Positions 12,164-20,786 of a stretch of DNA of 64,000 bases are shown piece after piece (the first letter of the stretch is position 1; each line of letters opens with the position of its first letter). The notes beneath the pieces were generated by a model. It was not told the origin of the DNA. It was given only the letters and a program-made list of their open reading frames with translations, and did no database searches. Both the position numbers and the translations under genes were made by a program. The DNA comes from Syntrophobotulus glycolicus DSM 8271 (GTDB taxonomy: Bacteria > Bacillota > Desulfitobacteriia > Desulfitobacteriales > Syntrophobotulaceae), in contig NC_015172.1 of NCBI RefSeq assembly GCF_000190635.1, positions 496,001-560,000 on the forward strand, in the 5' to 3' direction.

Positions 12164-13363
12164 ATGAAAAATAAAAATTTGCTTCATGGTCTGAGTGACG
12201 AATCCAAGAGAATATTAAAATTGTTCCTGCATAAAGGGGCGATGACGAAAAAACAGCTTTCCAAACTTTCCGGTTTAAAGCTTACGACGTTAAATCGAAT
12301 GATGCTCCCGCTGGAGGATTTAAACTTAATCGTCAAATCGGATATTGAAAAGTCTTCAGGAGGCCGCAAGCCGGCTCTCTATGATGTCAATGTCAAAGAT
12401 TATTATTTATTGGGGGTTGATATCTCCAGGCTCTATACCCAGATTGTTCTGACCAACCTTAAGATGAAGCCCTTGGAAAAGTACCGGTTTGATATGAATC
12501 AGGAATTAACTCCTGAGGCGACGCTGAAACGGATTTTAGAATGGATCCAGAATGTCCTGGCCAAGATCAAGGACGAATCCGTACTTGGTATAGGGATTGG
12601 AACGGTGGGCCCTTTAGACAGAGAGAACGGTGTGATTATTAATCCTGAAAATTTCGAAGCTCAAGGCTGGAAAAACATTGCCGTAAAATCCATATTCGAA
12701 GAAAAATTAGGCCTGCCTGTCCTGATCGATAACGGGGCCAATGCGGCAGTGCTGGCAGAAGCCAATTACGGGATAGGCAAAGGGATTAAAAATATTATGT
12801 ACCTGAATTGCGGGGTCGGGATCAGAACCGGATTTATTTCTTCGGGGATATTTGTGAGGACGGTCAACGATTCGGAGGATACCTTCGCCCATACTGTGAT
12901 CGATGTGAAGGGAAAGGAATGCCGGTGCGGCAATCATGGCTGCATTGAAAAGTATTCCTCCATTCACGCTATTTTGGAAGAGTTTGCGGACAGAGTCCAA
13001 AAAGGCGGTGTGACCAGAGTCAGCAAGCCTGCCCGCCAAATTTCCTATCTTGATATTTGCCGGGCAGCCGAAGACGACGACCCCCTTTCAGCAGAGGTCA
13101 TTCAAAACGCGGCTCTGATCATGGGAACAGGATTGGCAAACTTTATTCAGCTTTTCAATCCGGGTATTGTTGTTTTAAGCGGGCCCCTTATCCGCTACTC
13201 CAAGCTTTTTTATGAAGAATGTGTGAGGGCCGCTCGCCGGAAAAGTTTTTGGAATCAAGGCAACAACATTAACTTCAGCAGAGGGGGATCCTTCGCTGAA
13301 AATGCCATTTCTATCGGTTCGGCGGCTCTGGTGGTTGAAAATTTGTTCAATCATACGGGTTGA
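12164..13363 (+). CDS. ROK-family transcriptional regulator
   Basis: 399 residues. An N-terminal winged HTH (about 15-70, GAMTKKQLSKLSGLKLTTLNRM) precedes a ROK domain with the sugar-kinase-like ATP motif (LLGVDISRLYTQIV), GIGTVGPLDRENGVI, DNGANAAVLAEA and the zinc cluster CRCGNHGCIEKYSS. ROK regulators usually sense sugars or sugar phosphates. Here it lies between sulfate transport and sulfate activation genes, all same strand, so a role in sulfur control is possible but inferred only from position. A 7-codon reading frame at 12151-12174, with the better ribosome site, overlaps the start. Confidence 0.85.
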   Translation: MKNKNLLHGLSDESKRILKLFLHKGAMTKKQLSKLSGLKLTTLNRMMLPLEDLNLIVKSDIEKSSGGRKPALYDVNVKDYYLLGVDISRLYTQIVLTNLKMKPLEKYRFDMNQELTPEATLKRILEWIQNVLAKIKDESVLGIGIGTVGPLDRENGVIINPENFEAQGWKNIAVKSIFEEKLGLPVLIDNGANAAVLAEANYGIGKGIKNIMYLNCGVGIRTGFISSGIFVRTVNDSEDTFAHTVIDVKGKECRCGNHGCIEKYSSIHAILEEFADRVQKGGVTRVSKPARQISYLDICRAAEDDDPLSAEVIQNAALIMGTGLANFIQLFNPGIVVLSGPLIRYSKLFYEECVRAARRKSFWNQGNNINFSRGGSFAENAISIGSAALVVENLFNHTG

Positions 13364-13407
13364 GCTTCTGAAAAACAAAAGAGAAAGTGAAAAGGAAGAG
13401 ATCGGGA

Positions 13408-14118
13408 ATGGAATTGGAGATTAAAGCCCTAAACAATAAATATGCGCAAAAAAGTCCGGAAGAGTTCCTGGGAGAAATCGTAGAAAGAGTCGGAACGGCT
13501 AAGATTGCCCTGGCTTCCAGCCTTTCCATAGAGGACCAGGTCCTGACCGCCATGCTGCTCAAAACAGAACCGAAAGCCAGAATTTTCTTTATCGACACCG
13601 GCCGGCACTTTCAAAAGACCTATGATCTGATGGAAGAAACCATGCACAGGTACCACTTTCATTATGAAGTCTATGCTCCGGAGAGTAAGGATCTGGAAGA
13701 GATGGTGGCCGGGCATGGTCCCAATCTTTTTTATGAGAGCATAGAGCTGCGGAAAAAATGCTGTGAGCTGAGAAAGGTTAAGCCCCTGCAAAGGGTTCTG
13801 AGTACGGTAGACGCCTGGATCTGCGGCTTGCGCAGGGAACAGTCCCCGACCCGGGAGGAAGTCAATCTGCTGGAGTGGGACGGCAATCAGGCCATTTATA
13901 AAGTCAACCCTCTGGCTTTTTGGAGTGAAGAAAAGATCTGGGACTACATCAGGAAGGAAAATGTCCCTTACAGCAGCTTATATGACAAGGGATTCCGCAG
14001 TATTGGCTGCCGCCCCTGTACCAGGGCGGTCAAGCCGGGAGAAGATGTGCGCGGCGGCCGGTGGTGGTGGGAGAGCCCGGATAAGAAAGAATGCGGGCTG
14101 CATATTGCCCAGCCCTGA
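13408..14118 (+). CDS. cysH: Adenylyl-sulfate (APS) reductase, CysH family
   Basis: 236 residues; reduces APS to sulfite and AMP with thioredoxin as donor. The cysteine pairs that bind the 4Fe-4S cluster are present (C118-C119 and C201/C204 in GCRPC), which marks the APS-using rather than PAPS-using type. The catalytic KECGLH motif (C229) is near the C-terminus. ATG 13408 follows AAGGAAGAG. The use of APS fits the loss of a working APS-kinase motif in the downstream cysN. Confidence 0.94.
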
Positions 14119-14183: not shown

Positions 14184-15062
14184 ATGAATCATTTAGACAA
14201 GCTGGAAGCACAAAGCGTCTATATTCTGAGAGAAGCATACCGGGAATTCAAAAATATTTGTATGCTCTGGTCTATTGGCAAAGATAGCACAGTCCTTCTC
14301 TGGCTGGCCAGAAAAGCTTTCTTCGAACATGTTCCCATACCTCTGGTTCATATCGATACTCATTATAAAATTCCGGAAATGATTCAATACAGGGATAAGC
14401 TTGCTCATCAATGGCGGCTTACCATGATCTATGGAGAGAACAGTGAAGCTCTTCGGGAGAAAAGAACTTTTCCGGACGGCAAGGCGGACCGTCTGGCTTG
14501 CTGCCAGGCTTTAAAAACGGAAGCGCTGAAAAATACACTTTCCGGAGAATGGCCCAGATATGTGATGGATCTGAAGACCGGGAAATATATTGAAGACCAA
14601 AATAGGGAGAAATACACAGGGGTTATTGTAGGGGTAAGAGCAGATGAAGAGGGCAGCCGTTCCAAAGAAAGATATTTTTCTCCCCGGGATCAGGAAAATG
14701 ATTGGGATGTCGGGGACCAGCCCCCGGAATTTTGGAACCAGTTCAAAACGGATTTTGCTCCCGGTACCCATATCAGAATTCACCCCCTGCTCGATTGGAC
14801 AGAGCTGAATGTCTGGGAATATATCGAGAGAGAGAAAATCCCGGTAACCTCCCTGTATTTCGATCAGGGCAGCGGCAAAAGGTACCGCTCTCTGGGCTGT
14901 TACCCCTGCACCCTGCCGGTTGAGTCAACAGCCCAAAATGTAAGGGAAATCATTGAAGAATTACAAAGCGGCAAATTTGCCAACATCGCCGAAAGATCAG
15001 GACGCGCTCAGGATAAAGATGACGGCGGGCTTGAAACCTTGAGAAGAGGCGGGTATATGTAA
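14184..15062 (+). CDS. cysD: Sulfate adenylyltransferase small subunit CysD
   Basis: 292-residue ATP-sulfurylase catalytic subunit, forming APS from sulfate and ATP together with the GTPase CysN. PP-loop [15 protein letters not shown] (about residues 27-41) and the CysD hallmarks [38 protein letters not shown] and [13 protein letters not shown]. Start at ATG after GGAGGAAGAGAG. The next gene begins one base after its stop. Confidence 0.95.
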
Positions 15063-15063
15063 G

Positions 15064-16860
15064 ATGGAAACCAAAGAACAGATGAATATTGTGATTGTCG
15101 GTCATGTCGATCATGGCAAGAGCACGGTGATTGGAAGACTCCTGGCTGATACCGGTTCCCTGCCTGAGGGAAAACTGGAAGCGGTGAAAGAATACTGCCG
15201 GAAAAATTCCAGACCTTTTGAATATGCTTTCCTCTTAGATGCCTTGAAAGATGAACAGGCTCAGGGGATTACCATTGATACCGCCAGGTGCTTTTTTAAA
15301 ACGAACAAAAGAGATTATATTATCATTGATGCCCCGGGGCATATTGAATTTTTAAAAAATATGGTTACCGGAGCATCCAGGGCGGAAGCTGTCCTGTTGG
15401 TCATTGATGCCAAGGAAGGAATTCAAGAGAATTCCAAAAGACATGGCCATATTGTTTCTATGCTGGGTATTCACCAGGCAGTAGTTTTGGTGAACAAAAT
15501 GGATCTTGTTCATTTCGATCAGGGGGTCTTCGAGAAGATCACCGGAGAGTTTACGGAGTTCCTCCATAAAGTAAACATTAAGCCGGTCAATTTTATCCCT
15601 TTAAGCGCCTTCAACGGAGATAATATCGCGGTAAGATCTGAGCATACTCCATGGTACGGCGGCCCAACGGTTCTGGAGCAATTGGACCAATTCGCCAACA
15701 AAAAGGAAAACCAGGAGCTTCCGTTTAGAATGCCCGTCCAGGACATCTATAAATTCACCGAACAAGGGGATGACCGGCGGATCGTGGCGGGGACAGTCCT
15801 GAGCGGTAAAATCAGGACAGGAGATGAAGTCATTTTCCTGCCGTCCAAGAAAAGAAGCATAATTAAGAGTATCGAGGGCTTTCACGTGGCCCCCAGGACT
15901 ACGGCTTACGCAGACCAGGCCATCGGCCTTACTCTGGAAACACAAATTTATATCAAACCCGGCGAACTGCTGGTTAAAGCGGAGGAGTCACAGCCTGTCC
16001 TCAGTTCCCGCTTCAGAGCCAATATCTTTTGGGTCGGGAAAGCGCCGCTAATCAAAAACAAAAATTATAAGCTGAAAATCGGGACCATGCGGATTGGGGT
16101 TAAGCTGGTCGAAATCCTGAACATCATTGATGCGGCCGAACTCAATATTGATAGGTTCAAAGACCAGGTGGAACGGCACGATGTAGCCGAATGCATCTTA
16201 GAAACAGTGAAGCCCATAGCCTTTGATCCCATCTCGGAGCTCGAACTGACCGGAAGATTTGTGATTGTGGATAATTATGAAATATCCGGCGGCGGGATTA
16301 TTTTGGCAGGAGTCTCCGATTCCGGACATACTCTCCTGGAACATGTCCGGGACAGGGAATTCCTATGGGAAAAAGGCCTGATTTCCTCCCAGCGCAGAAA
16401 AGAAGCCTATGGACATAAGTCCAAATTTATTGTGATCACCTCAGGCAGTGAAGGCAGCGAAAAAGTCATTCAGGATATTGGCAAGGATCTGGAACAGGAG
16501 CTTTTTAACAGGAGGTATAAGACATATTATCTTGGTGTGGCCAGCCTTCTTCACGGACTTGGAGCCGAGGCCAAAGATGAATATGAAGGACGGGAGGAGC
16601 ATATCCGCCAAATCGGCGAACTGGCCAGAATCTTTACCGACTCCGGGCAGATCTTCATCACCTCGGTCTTTAACCTGGATGATTATGAAGCGGAAAAGCT
16701 GAAAGTTCTGAACCGGCCCAATGACATTTTAATCATTAATATCGGGGAAACACCATTTGACAGTTTCCGGCCCGATGCCAAGATCAACCCGGAAGGAGCA
16801 GTCAAGGCGGTGTGCGCCCTCCTACAACAGCATGAAATCATCCTCGACTATTATATTTGA
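15064..16860 (+). CDS. cysN: Sulfate adenylyltransferase large subunit CysN with a degenerate APS-kinase tail
   Basis: 598 residues. The N-terminal GTPase has G1 GHVDHGKST (13-21), G3 DAPGH and G4 NKMD, then EF-Tu-like beta domains to about residue 430. From about 435 the rest aligns in layout with CysC (APS kinase) as in CysNC fusions, but the P-loop expected as GLSGSGKST reads SGSEGSEK (460-467) with the key Gly and Lys-Ser/Thr lost, and other kinase motifs are weak. So the tail is likely a catalytically dead remnant with a structural role. This is consistent with direct APS reduction by the upstream CysH. Confidence 0.9.
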
Positions 16861-16965: not shown

Positions 16966-17175
16966 ATGGAGATTACAGCAAATGGAAATAAGGTTATCCT
17001 GGAGAAAGAGAACTCGGTAAAAGAGCTTCTGGATACCCTCAAAGTTGAAATGCCCGAATATGTAACGGTTCAAATTAATGAAGATATCATTGACCGGGCA
17101 GATTTTGAGACATTGTTGGTGAAAGAAAATGACGTGGTTGAATTTCTTTATTTTATGGGAGGGGGAGCCCGATGA
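16966..17175 (+). CDS. hcyS: ThiS/MoaD-like sulfur-carrier protein with masked C-terminus (HcyS-type)
   Basis: 69-residue beta-grasp protein (ThiS fold: MEITANGNKVILEKENSV..., VTVQINEDIIDR). Sulfur carriers must end in Gly-Gly; this one ends G65-G66-G67-A68-R69, two residues too long. In Wolinella the homologous HcyS ends in an extra Ala that a JAMM protease removes. A JAMM protease gene lies two genes downstream here. After trimming, the C-terminal Gly would be adenylated by the next gene product, turned into a thiocarboxylate and used by MetY for homocysteine. Start set by GGAGGACAAGAAACG before ATG. Confidence 0.85.
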   Translation: MEITANGNKVILEKENSVKELLDTLKVEMPEYVTVQINEDIIDRADFETLLVKENDVVEFLYFMGGGAR

Positions 17176-17984
17176 GTTTTTCTAATGAACAGCTTGAACG
17201 ATATTCCAGACACATTATTCTGAAAGACGTCGGGGTCAAAGGACAAAGAAAATTGCTGGAGGCTAAGGTTCTGATTGTAGGGACAGGGGGGCTGGGAGCA
17301 CCGGCCGCCATGTTCCTGGCCGCGGCGGGAATCGGCACGATAGGTCTGGTGGATTTTGACGCTGTTGAGTTGTCTAATCTGCAGAGGCAGATTATCCATT
17401 TGACAAAGGATGTCGGCAAGCCCAAAGTGCGATCGGGCCAAGAAACCATCAATGAAATGAATCCTGATGTTGATGTCCGCACTTACCAGGAATGGGTGAG
17501 CTCTGCCAATATTCAAGACATCATTAATGACCAGGATTATGATTTTATTATTGACGGCACAGATAATTTTCCGGCTAAATTCTTAATCAATGATGCTTGT
17601 GTTCTGAGCCAGAAACCTTTTTCCCATGCCGGAATTATCAGGTTTCAGGGCCAGACCATGACCTATGTGCCCGGACAGGGGCCCTGTTACAGGTGTGTCT
17701 TCAAAAATCCGCCGCCTCCCGATAGTGTGCCGACCTGCAAACAGGCCGGAGTGTTGGGGGTCATGGGCGGAATCATCGGGACAATTCAGGCTACCGAAGC
17801 GATCAAATCTGTGCTGGGCATAGGTGATCTGCTGACCGGGCATCTCCTGACTTACGATGCCTTGAAAATGGAGTTTAGAAAAATCAAACTGGCCAGTGAT
17901 AAAAAGTGCCGCATTTGCGGCGAAAACCCCTCTATTCATGAGCTGATCGACTATGAGCAAGCGGTTTGTGATTTTAAACATTAA
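17172..17984 (+). CDS. hcyF: E1-like ThiF/MoeB-family adenylyltransferase (HcyF-type)
   Basis: 270 residues; adenylates the C-terminal Gly of the sulfur carrier. ATP-binding GTGGLGAPAAMFLAAAGIG (about 35-53), LVDFDAVELSNLQRQ, conserved Asp in IIDGTDNF, and a zinc site from CYRC and CRIC. No rhodanese domain, so sulfide probably comes from sulfite reductase rather than from a persulfide. The start overlaps the carrier gene stop (ATGA), which couples the two. Confidence 0.92.
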   Translation: MSFSNEQLERYSRHIILKDVGVKGQRKLLEAKVLIVGTGGLGAPAAMFLAAAGIGTIGLVDFDAVELSNLQRQIIHLTKDVGKPKVRSGQETINEMNPDVDVRTYQEWVSSANIQDIINDQDYDFIIDGTDNFPAKFLINDACVLSQKPFSHAGIIRFQGQTMTYVPGQGPCYRCVFKNPPPPDSVPTCKQAGVLGVMGGIIGTIQATEAIKSVLGIGDLLTGHLLTYDALKMEFRKIKLASDKKCRICGENPSIHELIDYEQAVCDFKH

Positions 17985-18016
17985 GCTGTTAACCGGAAAG
18001 AATACAGAGTAAGTAG

Positions 18017-18448
18017 GTGTTGGAATTGATAGTGATTTCTCAACGGCAGTTCAATGAAGTCCTGAACCATACTCTTCAGGGTTTTCCCAATGAGGCCTGC
18101 GGGCTTCTGGGAGGAAAAATCGAGGGTGATCTTAAACACATTGAAAAGGTTTATCTTCTGACCAATACAGATCACAGCCCGGAACATTTCTCCATGGACC
18201 CGAAAGAGCAATTCGCGGCAATTAAGGATATGCGCACTAATGGCTGGGTGATGCTGGGAAACTTTCACAGCCACCCCGGATCACCTTCCCGCCCGTCGGA
18301 GGAGGACAAAAGATTAGCCTTTGACCCGGAGATGAGCTATTTGATCTTGTCCCTATTGGATCGGAACAACCCTGTTCTGAAGAGCTTTAAAATCTTAAAG
18401 AATACAGTGGAAGAAGAAGAAATCATATGTTCGGAGGAGGCTGGATAA
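18017..18448 (+). CDS. hcyD: JAMM/MPN metalloprotease (HcyD-type)
   Basis: 143 residues. Complete JAMM zinc motif: E26 in PNEACG, then H84-x-H86-x7-S94-x2-D97 (HSHPGSPSRPSEED). In the Wolinella pathway HcyD removes the extra residue from the carrier protein and later cuts homocysteine from the carrier-amino-acid adduct; the Mycobacterium Mec protein does the latter for CysO-cysteine. Start codon uncertain: GTG 18017, TTG 18020 or TTG 18026 are all possible behind a weak GTAGGTG site. Confidence 0.9.
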   Translation: MLELIVISQRQFNEVLNHTLQGFPNEACGLLGGKIEGDLKHIEKVYLLTNTDHSPEHFSMDPKEQFAAIKDMRTNGWVMLGNFHSHPGSPSRPSEEDKRLAFDPEMSYLILSLLDRNNPVLKSFKILKNTVEEEEIICSEEAG

Positions 18449-19315
18449 ATGCCTGAGGTTGATTATAAAGAGCTGAAAAAAGGCGGCTTTATGCGCCAGG
18501 TTCAGAAAGATCACTTTTCCTTAAGACTGAGAATTGTTGGCGGTCAGATTCAGGCCGGTCAGCTGCAAAAGGTCTATGAAATTGCCCGGGAGTACGGGCA
18601 GGGTGATATTCACATGACTTCCCGGCAAAGCATTGAGATTCCTTTTATCAAACTCAAGGATATTGATGCCGTGAAAAAAGAACTGACTGAAGCAGGCTTG
18701 CAGCCCGGAGCGTGCGGACCAAGGGTCAGAACGATCACGGCCTGTCAGGGCGGTGCGATTTGCCCCAGCGGTCTCATTGACACAGCTGTACTGGCCCGGG
18801 AATTCGACCAAAAATACTATGCCAGGGAATTGCCTCATAAATTTAAGCTGGGAATTACCGGCTGCCGCAATAATTGCCTCAAGGCTGAGGAGAATGATCT
18901 TGGGGTCAAAGGCGGAGTAAAACCGGAGTGGGGCATGGACAAATGTAATTTTTGCGGCCTTTGTGAAGCAGTATGTCCGGAAAAATCGATTCGTCTTGAT
19001 CAAGAAAACCGCAAGCTTGAGCTGAATACACGAACCTGCAATGATTGCGGACGCTGTGTCAAGGTCTGTCCGGTCGAAGCCTGGGTAGGCCAAAGCGGAT
19101 TTATTGTTTATTTTGGCGGACTGTTTGGAAACCGGATTGCCATCGGCAAACAGCTTTTCCCGATTGTTTTTTCCACGGAAGTCCTTCATCAAGTGATTGA
19201 AACCACACTTCACTTTTTTCAGCAATATGCCAAGCCCAGTGAAAGATTCCGCAATACGCTTGATCGGGTGGGCTGGGAATTGCTTGAAAAGGAATTAAAG
19301 GAGGTTGTGAAATGA
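18449..19315 (+). CDS. Small siroheme sulfite reductase with 4Fe-4S ferredoxin domain
   Basis: 288 residues. An N-terminal ferredoxin-like half-domain (MTSRQSIEIPF), then the siroheme-4Fe-4S ligands (TACQGGAICPSGL and GITGCRNNCLK), interrupted by a two-cluster ferredoxin insert (CNFCGLCEAVCPE, CNDCGRCVKVCPV). It reduces sulfite to sulfide; half-size single-repeat enzymes of this kind are found in anaerobes. The gene starts directly after the hcyD stop. It would supply bisulfide for HcyS thiocarboxylate. Siroheme is made by the downstream sirC pathway. Confidence 0.9.
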   Translation: MPEVDYKELKKGGFMRQVQKDHFSLRLRIVGGQIQAGQLQKVYEIAREYGQGDIHMTSRQSIEIPFIKLKDIDAVKKELTEAGLQPGACGPRVRTITACQGGAICPSGLIDTAVLAREFDQKYYARELPHKFKLGITGCRNNCLKAEENDLGVKGGVKPEWGMDKCNFCGLCEAVCPEKSIRLDQENRKLELNTRTCNDCGRCVKVCPVEAWVGQSGFIVYFGGLFGNRIAIGKQLFPIVFSTEVLHQVIETTLHFFQQYAKPSERFRNTLDRVGWELLEKELKEVVK

Positions 19316-19560
19316 GTGTGCAAAAAAGCGACGCTTTTGTCGATATTACCGATGTCGTCTGTCCAATCACATTTGTGAAAACAAAGGTGGCGATAGAGGA
19401 GCTGGAAAAGGGCCAGGTCCTGGAAATTCTGATGAATGAGGGAGAACCAATTCAAAATGTTCCCCGGAGTCTAAAGGACGAAAGCCATAAAATCATCAAT
19501 GTGCAAAATAATGGGAATGGGACCTATACCGTATTAGTCGAGAAGGACGGACTGGCATGA
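19312..19560 (+). CDS. TusA/SirA-like sulfurtransferase protein
   Basis: 82 residues with the TusA fold pattern and the single conserved Cys in VCPITFVKTK. TusA proteins pass sulfur as a persulfide. Its start overlaps the stop of the sulfite reductase gene and its own stop overlaps metY, so all three are co-translated. It probably handles sulfide or persulfide between the reductase and the carrier protein; this role is inferred from position. Confidence 0.88.
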   Translation: MSVQKSDAFVDITDVVCPITFVKTKVAIEELEKGQVLEILMNEGEPIQNVPRSLKDESHKIINVQNNGNGTYTVLVEKDGLA

Positions 19561-20786
19561 AATTCAATACAGCATTGCTTCATGGAAATTACTCTTCGGA
19601 TGAAAAAACCGGGGCGACAGGGATACCCATTTACCAGTCAACAGCATTTCGGCATAATACGGCGGAAGAACTGGAGAATATTTTTAAAGGGAATGCTCCC
19701 GGATTTGTTTATTCAAGGATCAATAACCCCACTGTAGATTCCTTCGAACGCAGGATAGCTTTTCTGGAAGGAGGGATTGCCGCCGTCGCTTGTGCTTCAG
19801 GGATGGCGGCAATTTCCCTTGCCGTAATGAATATTGTTCAAAGCGGGGAAGAGCTTGTTTCGGGGAGCGGGATATTTGGCGGAACATACAGTCTCTTCGA
19901 TGATCTGAGAGCCTTCGGAATTACCCCCAGATATGTTAAGGATAACAGCATCGAGAGCTATGCCCGGGAAATTAATGAAAAGACCAGACTGATTTTTGTT
20001 GAGACAATCGGCAACCCCAAACTTGATGTGCAGGACCTGCGTTCTTTAGCTGAGCTGGCCCATGCCAAAGGGATTCCCCTGGTTGTGGACAACACCGTAA
20101 CAACACCCTATCTGGTCAAACCGGTGAAGTTAGGCGCCGATATTGTTGTCCACTCAACATCCAAATATATTAATGGCGGGGGGAACTCCATCGGCGGGGT
20201 GATCATTGACAGCGGCAAATTCAAATGGGACTTCGACAAATACCCGGCTTTAAAGGATTTTAAGAAGTTCGGCGGGTTTGCCTACCTGGCTAAGTTAAGG
20301 AACGGCTTGTTCCGGAATCTTGGTTCCTGTATCGCACCGTTCAATGCTTATCTCAACAGTATTGGGTTAGAAACTCTGGGTTTAAGAATGGAAAGACTAT
20401 GTGATAATGCTTTAAAATTAGCCGAGAGCTTAAATGAAAACAAGCATGTCCTGGCTGTCAATTATCCCGGTCTGAAAAATCATGAGGATCATGAGCTGGC
20501 TAAAGAGCAGTTCAATAACAGGTTCGGAGCGATTCTCACGATCAGAGTGGGGAGCAAGGAAAGAGCCTTCAAGGTGATCAATCATCTCAGATATGCCTCA
20601 AACCTGGCCAATATAGGGGATGTCCGGACTCTGGTCATTCATCCTGCTTCCACCATATATTTAAATAACAGTATGGAAGAAAGAGAAAGAGCCGGAGTCT
20701 ATGATGATCTGATCAGAATAAGTGTCGGCCTGGAGGATATCGAAGATCTTGAAGAAGATTTCCAGAGGGCTGTTGAGGAAAAATAA
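19557..20786 (+). CDS. metY: O-acetylhomoserine sulfhydrylase MetY
   Basis: 409-residue PLP enzyme of the Cys/Met metabolism family. The Schiff-base Lys is K203 in HSTSKYINGGGNSIGG; SGMAAISLAVMNIVQSGEELV, VDNTVTTPYLVKP and TLVIHPASTIY are typical of MetY. It joins O-acetylhomoserine with sulfide, or in this cluster probably with the carrier-protein thiocarboxylate, to give homocysteine. Last gene of the sulfur operon. Confidence 0.94.
   Translation: MKFNTALLHGNYSSDEKTGATGIPIYQSTAFRHNTAEELENIFKGNAPGFVYSRINNPTVDSFERRIAFLEGGIAAVACASGMAAISLAVMNIVQSGEELVSGSGIFGGTYSLFDDLRAFGITPRYVKDNSIESYAREINEKTRLIFVETIGNPKLDVQDLRSLAELAHAKGIPLVVDNTVTTPYLVKPVKLGADIVVHSTSKYINGGGNSIGGVIIDSGKFKWDFDKYPALKDFKKFGGFAYLAKLRNGLFRNLGSCIAPFNAYLNSIGLETLGLRMERLCDNALKLAESLNENKHVLAVNYPGLKNHEDHELAKEQFNNRFGAILTIRVGSKERAFKVINHLRYASNLANIGDVRTLVIHPASTIYLNNSMEERERAGVYDDLIRISVGLEDIEDLEEDFQRAVEEK

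Follow-up and report, generated by a model that had tools for sequence, protein, structure and literature searches.

The window, a stretch of 64,000 nucleotides from Syntrophobotulus glycolicus DSM 8271, carries a cluster of sulfur metabolism genes composed of the following:

13387 to 14118, + strand: CysH, an APS-type reductase (CC...CxxC; TIGR02055, 262.1 bits over a cut-off of 235.3)
14184 to 15062, + strand: CysD, catalytic subunit of ATP sulfurylase (NF003587, 352 bits over 195)
15064 to 16860, + strand: CysN, large subunit of ATP sulfurylase, with a pseudo-APS-kinase tail (598 residues, open frame)
16966 to 17175, + strand: ThiS-like sulfur carrier protein (Pfam ThiS, 42.9 bits)
17172 to 17984, + strand: ThiF/E1-like activating enzyme (Pfam ThiF, 282.8 bits)
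18017 to 18448, + strand: JAB-type metalloprotease (Pfam Prok-JAB, 81.6 bits)
18449 to 19315, + strand: small sulfite reductase with a ferredoxin domain (Pfam NIR_SIR, 96.9 bits)
19312 to 19560, + strand: TusA/SirA-like sulfurtransferase (Pfam TusA, 66.9 bits)
19557 to 20786, + strand: Cys/Met-metabolism PLP enzyme (Pfam Cys_Met_Meta_PP, 397 bits)

The cysteine motif and TIGR02055 score agree with an earlier note on this DNA, which had called the CysH of the cluster APS-type. cysD stops one base before cysN. The genes that follow cysN (16966 to 20786), the last of which we take to encode a MetY-like O-acetylhomoserine sulfhydrylase, suggest protein-bound sulfide transfer to homocysteine, a process carried out by such a gene set in Wolinella. 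A comparable sulfur metabolism operon with ThiS/MoaD, JAB, E1, and SirA genes was recorded in 2006, together with an adenylylsulfate kinase product (row 4e of Table 1, in the accessible part of PMC1779556); the window holds the same kind of set, with the dead CysN tail described below as its sole kinase-like part. A ROK-family gene at 12164 to 13363, located between a sulfate transporter ATPase gene and cysH, is a candidate regulator, and a homologue occupies the same place in two relatives (L069 and L070). The host genome is a single contig, 99.99% complete, with one CysN, and its single APS_kinase match is the tail of that CysN; searches of it turned up neither a second APS kinase nor a Sat-type ATP sulfurylase (PF01747) nor a Sulfotransfer_1 protein (PF00685).

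The CysN frame scored above the cut-off of the CysN model TIGR02034 (352.7 versus 336.1 bits). Residues 1 to 413 form the GTPase part, with GTPase motifs at residues 13, 89, and 144. In structural comparisons, the predicted full-length model (pLDDT 81.1) best matched Pseudomonas syringae CysN (1zun_B; Z 30.5, 386 aligned residues, rmsd 2.9), with elongation factors ranking below it (Z 26.9); by sequence alone, one archaeal EF-1alpha (271 bits) stood slightly above 1zun_B (266 bits). Pfam APS_kinase (PF01583) matched residues 455 to 536 with 34.2 bits, above its cut-off of 21.1, while the NCBIfam APS kinase model TIGR00455 (40.6 bits; cut-off, 138.7) and the bifunctional CysNC model NF004035 (434 bits; cut-off, 715) both remained below theirs. 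The tail contains the following features:

16330 to 16857, + strand: tail, residues 423 to 598, a linker helix followed by a domain of predicted APS-kinase fold (Pfam APS_kinase, AF2 model, and structural match)
16441 to 16464, + strand: degenerate P-loop SGSEGSEK, residues 460 to 467 (0 of 5 P-loop positions kept)
16531 to 16551, + strand: site of the lost LDGDNxR motif, residues 490 to 496, LGVASLL (alignment with intact kinases)
16588 to 16647, + strand: retained helix alpha2, residues 509 to 528, assigned by the order of structural elements (mean conservation 0.682, versus 0.728 in intact kinases)
16681 to 16719, + strand: retained helix alpha3, residues 540 to 552 (mean conservation 0.639, versus 0.564 in intact kinases)
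16744 to 16785, + strand: stump of the deleted nucleotide lid, residues 561 to 574 (alignment with intact kinases)

The earlier note had described the C-terminal tail as shaped like CysC and had proposed a structure prediction with comparison; both the Pfam match and the predicted fold bear this out. Modeled alone with AF2 (pLDDT 81.6), the tail was matched by VIA to the human PAPSS1 kinase (1xnj) with a Z of 19.9 over 155 residues (rmsd 2.0). APS kinases and the kinase-like domains of ATP sulfurylases, including that of Penicillium ATP sulfurylase (1m8p; Z 15.6), matched at Z values of 15 to 20, and the first entry belonging to neither group had a Z of 13.2. Thus, as predicted by the model, the CysN tail is of the APS-kinase fold. 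A tail without kinship to CysC was rejected on the basis of the fold and profile matches.

To score the kinase site, we used 17 positions invariant in 16 intact kinases (one of them in 15 of 16): five in the P-loop, three in LDGDNxR, two in RxxNIRR, one in FISP, and six in the lid and substrate loop. Intact kinases keep 16 or 17 of these positions, whereas the 39 aligned tails from the window's family have between 0 and 5 (median, 1). Where intact kinases show GLSGxGKS, the window has SGSEGSEK, as had been claimed from the letters alone; by eye two glycines and a lysine remain, but in the alignment none of the five P-loop positions is kept. The P-loop site carries different letters among the relatives, and the GxxGxGK[ST] pattern is absent from all 39 family tails. 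The earlier note had named only the P-loop; that loss stands, but its extent proved wider, since LDGD, the arginine after it, FISP, and the KGLYxKAR...FTG...PYE lid are gone as well. The first LDGD aspartate and the arginine are each kept in 0 of 39 tails and the second aspartate in 1; the lid Arg and Tyr, the KAR Lys, the FTG Phe, and the PYE Tyr are each kept in none, and one lid Lys in 1 of 39. The window tail keeps two positions, the Arg of RxxNIRR (equivalent to Arg497 of Mycobacterium tuberculosis CysC and kept in 33 of 39 family tails) and a lysine of the lid stump whose alignment is doubtful. With residue roles taken from the accessible part of PMC4373884, the equivalents of M. tuberculosis D480, R483, S524, K562, and F576 each survive in no more than 1 of the 39 tails, although S524 works through its main chain, so that a change of letter there says little, and Phe492 and Ile523 lie outside the scored set. 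A profile built from the 16 intact kinases, which include the kinase domains of intact CysN tails, gave 317 to 348 bits for intact CysN tails, 25 to 82 bits for dead tails, and about 0 for other tails. Judging from these sequence losses and the predicted fold, the window tail is almost certainly no longer an active kinase.

A search for the P-loop-less variant in relatives, also suggested in the earlier note, was carried out as a contig scan with a tail alignment of six near relatives and two short peptide patterns. It yielded 33 loci with near full-length tails of the same type in 32 genomes, a lower bound because the scan relied on two short patterns. By record title, the relatives are Clostridia, Omnitrophota, Lentisphaerae, Kiritimatiellae, Verrucomicrobia, Planctomycetota, Syntrophobacterales, and one Bacteroidetes bin; many are metagenome bins, which may be misbinned or incomplete, and L077 and L078 come from one such bin. 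The full-length alignment left out L064 and L067, which lack a full-length CysN frame under the start choice used, and L087, which is cut by a contig end; the tail alignment left out the near copy L070, and the 39 family rows contain the near-identical pairs L069/L070 and L172/L176. CysD precedes CysN in all 33 loci. CysH is complete in 30 loci, each time with the CC...CxxC of APS reductases and directly upstream of CysD, at spacings from a 4-base overlap to 337 bases; of the other three, two lack CysH on the contig and the third has a CysH fragment. No intact APS kinase was found in 24 of the 32 genomes, and one was present in the other 8. The dead tails exceed the Pfam APS_kinase cut-off in 31 of 32 genomes. 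Within the window's order, the tail type occurs in 6 of 73 genomes, each without another APS_kinase match, and in the phylum of locus L082, going by profile score only, 31 of 288 genomes gave tail-profile matches of at least 170 bits, the next match being at 85 bits.

The tail is under purifying selection. Its dN/dS was 0.07 to 0.20 in six of eight pairs of relatives, with synonymous sites saturated in the other two, and that of the GTPase part was 0.02 to 0.11 in the seven pairs in which it was computable; several of these values depend on a dS close to 1 or higher. Compared with the window, 30 relatives were 40 to 76% identical in the tail and 59 to 86% identical in the GTPase part, showing that the tail evolves faster. 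Sequencing error or a pseudogene was ruled out by the open frames in relatives from several phyla together with the low dN/dS. Twelve tail positions are invariant in the 39 family rows, all of them outside the old active-site loops, and 31 are identical in at least 37 rows, 17 of which differ from the commonest residue of intact kinases. In the old catalytic loops, conservation averages 0.730 for intact kinases and 0.440 for family tails, while alpha2 and alpha3 together stand at 0.665 in the family and 0.664 in intact kinases. Of 136 circular shifts of the mask, 4 equalled the contrast between helices and loops; 12 equalled the excess of the two helices over the remainder of the domain, which by itself is not striking and may simply reflect the fold core. 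Conservation was gained relative to intact kinases in the linker helix (+0.25) and in the last eight residues (+0.37). In M. tuberculosis CysC, alpha2 and alpha3 make up the dominant part of the dimer interface, as described in the portion of PMC4373884 available. Taken with that interface, the conservation of the two helices hints at a role in pairing, although part of this signal could come from the fold core.

To place the tail among CysN proteins, 398 genomes of the window's phylum, drawn evenly and including the window's own, were surveyed. The survey gave 51 CysN matches in 48 genomes, with an intact kinase tail in 8, a dead kinase tail in 24, and other, short, or no tails in 19; the last group divides into 3 with no or only a short tail and 16 with an unrelated or unrecognized one. 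A 2007 survey distinguished CysN from NodQ by the Pfam APS_kinase domain, and Escherichia coli CysN has none (both from the accessible part of PMC1780047). Because some CysN proteins, that of E. coli among them, lack a kinase-fold tail, CysN in general does not require one. In an 84-row tree built on the GTPase part (without L064, L067, and L180, the window's duplicate, and with near-identical pairs kept), the window's family forms one side of a well-supported branch (37 rows; support, 100/89). Dead tails with differing erosion occupy separate parts of the tree, and the dead-tail label requires at least four changes by starred branches, a count that cannot separate loss from regain. The GTPase tree nests L181, a CysN with an intact kinase, among dead-tail CysN proteins. 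In the tail tree, which contains one misframed row, L067, as a very long branch, the kinase of L181 instead joins the intact kinases. This conflict makes a domain replacement possible in L181, from a dead tail to a working one.

Close to the window's family on the CysN tree are two sister groups, one of 10 and one of 5 CysN proteins (15 in all, from 13 genomes), each with its own type of dead tail; family and sister groups come together in 54 rows (100/99). All members of the ten-member type keep the first Gly, the last Gly, and the Lys of the P-loop, and none keeps the Ser or the LDGD, lid, or PYE positions. This less eroded P-loop makes residual nucleotide binding possible there. An intact stand-alone CysC is present on the fetched stretch in 10 of the 15 sister loci and was not found on it in the other 5; if CysC is taken to begin at its first in-frame start, it shares 7 bases with the end of cysN in L184, L187, and L193. 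The sister neighbor table, which alone covers L183, used the window's CysH as its sole reductase query and missed other reductases. In locus L185, the APS reductase that lies between CysC and CysD is AprA-like (NF005331, 946 bits), and an entry of "no CysH" in that table therefore does not mean that an APS reductase is absent.

The reading that we prefer, with a probability of roughly 0.5, is that the tail is a structural pseudokinase retained for assembly. It combines a predicted fold with computed losses, selection, and gene order, and adds pairing and a larger complex, which we infer. The tail would descend from an APS kinase fused to CysN (CysNC) and would now be a pseudokinase that has kept the fold and lost the ATP site, the APS site, and the lid. 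CysD-CysN would make APS, and no part of the cluster would convert it to PAPS. We put the odds at about even that the tail has been retained as a protein-protein module. It would still pair, most likely via alpha2 and alpha3, as true APS kinase dimers do, in a model that borrows its interface helices from the kinase of another species. Tail pairing would join CysD-CysN units in a larger complex, and the APS made there could pass to the neighboring APS reductase; a transfer of this kind from CysN to CysH is possible.

The earlier note had argued that PAPS is not needed beside an APS-type CysH. The 24 genomes without an intact kinase agree with this, but the 8 with one elsewhere and the CysC in 10 of 15 sister loci do not. 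Since dead tails persist whether or not PAPS is made, a lack of need for PAPS is not the whole story, which favors a noncatalytic job. The further idea that the tail was kept for assembly or for channeling APS is reasonable given that selection maintains it, but the evidence does not single out either role.

As in Penicillium ATP sulfurylase, whose corresponding domain is kinase-dead, the tail might instead be an allosteric sensor that binds a nucleotide (PAPS, APS, ADP, or product) and tunes CysD-CysN. Precedent in another ATP sulfurylase, the fold match to 1m8p, and the conserved equivalent of Arg497 are consistent with this. The loss of most scored kinase-type APS contacts and of the lid, however, speaks against a kinase-like ligand site, and in 24 of the 32 genomes no intact kinase was found that could supply PAPS; we regard a sensor as rather unlikely. 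A similarly low likelihood attaches to a docking platform, on which the tail would recruit CysH in the window's family, or stand-alone CysC in the sister groups, and pass APS directly. CysH directly upstream in all 30 loci with a complete CysH, the CysC genes near sister cysN, the three 7-base overlaps given the first in-frame start, and the possibility that a kinase-fold tail pairs with CysC as kinases do with each other would all fit. Nonetheless, gene order is evidence of coexpression at most, and the fetched stretch of five sister loci yielded no CysC.

An unneeded kinase could also be decaying slowly and persist as a passive remnant only because its deletion would unfold CysN. The varied erosion of dead tails in separate parts of the CysN tree and the faster evolution of the tail are compatible with decay, but the low dN/dS of the tail, near full-length tails across several phyla, family-specific near-invariant residues, and the existence of tail-less CysN proteins make it quite improbable. 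A working kinase with an unusual active site is scarcely credible, since the tail lacks Walker A, both LDGD aspartates, the Arg and Lys of the lid, and the Phe that stacks on APS, even though Pfam still assigns APS_kinase and the modeled fold is kept.

A structural or docking role is thus probable for the dead domain, and the structural pseudokinase remains our best reading. More tentatively, and with the chances rather against it, in complexes found across phyla the dead APS kinase may act as a coupler, holding CysD-CysN together and handing APS to CysH or, in the sister groups, to CysC; loss of the kinase would then have given a dedicated APS-to-sulfite assembly line.

Like CysNC/NodQ of M. 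tuberculosis and Sinorhizobium, the window protein has the same domain order and fold with an intact GTPase part; unlike them, it has lost nearly all scored kinase-site positions and the lid, and it has a new conserved linker and C terminus. Dead APS-kinase domains were known before on fungal ATP sulfurylases (Penicillium chrysogenum and yeast), likewise at the C terminus. There, however, the catalytic part is of the unrelated Sat type (PF01747), whereas the host here is the GTPase subunit CysN, and the origin is therefore presumably independent. The kinase-like domains of other ATP sulfurylases act as an allosteric part or as an essential component of the hexamer, according to the accessible parts of PMC3734648 and PMC3779200. 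Entamoeba histolytica APS kinase also retains a dead partner domain of the sulfate activation pair, as a mirror image of the window, with the sulfurylase domain dead and the kinase alive; that domain is described as oligomer stabilizing and regulatory in the available portion of PMC13213808. Among the papers listed in a search largely without the subscription literature, none dealt with a kinase-dead CysN tail by title or abstract opening. Dead kinase domains on a bacterial GTPase subunit, scattered over its tree, make a pseudokinase role in sulfate activation testable in bacteria. Databases that credit these CysN proteins with a second enzyme, APS kinase, are probably wrong; because dead tails pass the Pfam APS_kinase cut-off, PAPS synthesis can be predicted where none exists.

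Other tails were encountered in the survey. By eye, the tails of L157, L158, and L153 (112 to 139 residues) resemble further eroded kinase remnants, for which the kinase profiles gave no support (E 0.045 or worse). Thirteen of the 51 CysN proteins (L160 to L162, L166, L168 to L171, L173, L175, and L177 to L179) carry a different C-terminal domain of about 150 to 165 residues in the place of the kinase, often with a DEYYY motif. Two of these tails were compared with Pfam and had no match at cut-off, and the kinase profiles did not find the type. The thirteen fall into two far-apart CysN clades, and a profile of one set finds the other (E 1e-39 to 1e-43). Two genomes each carry two dead-tail CysN genes: G151 (L174 and L183) and G423 (L167 and L182).
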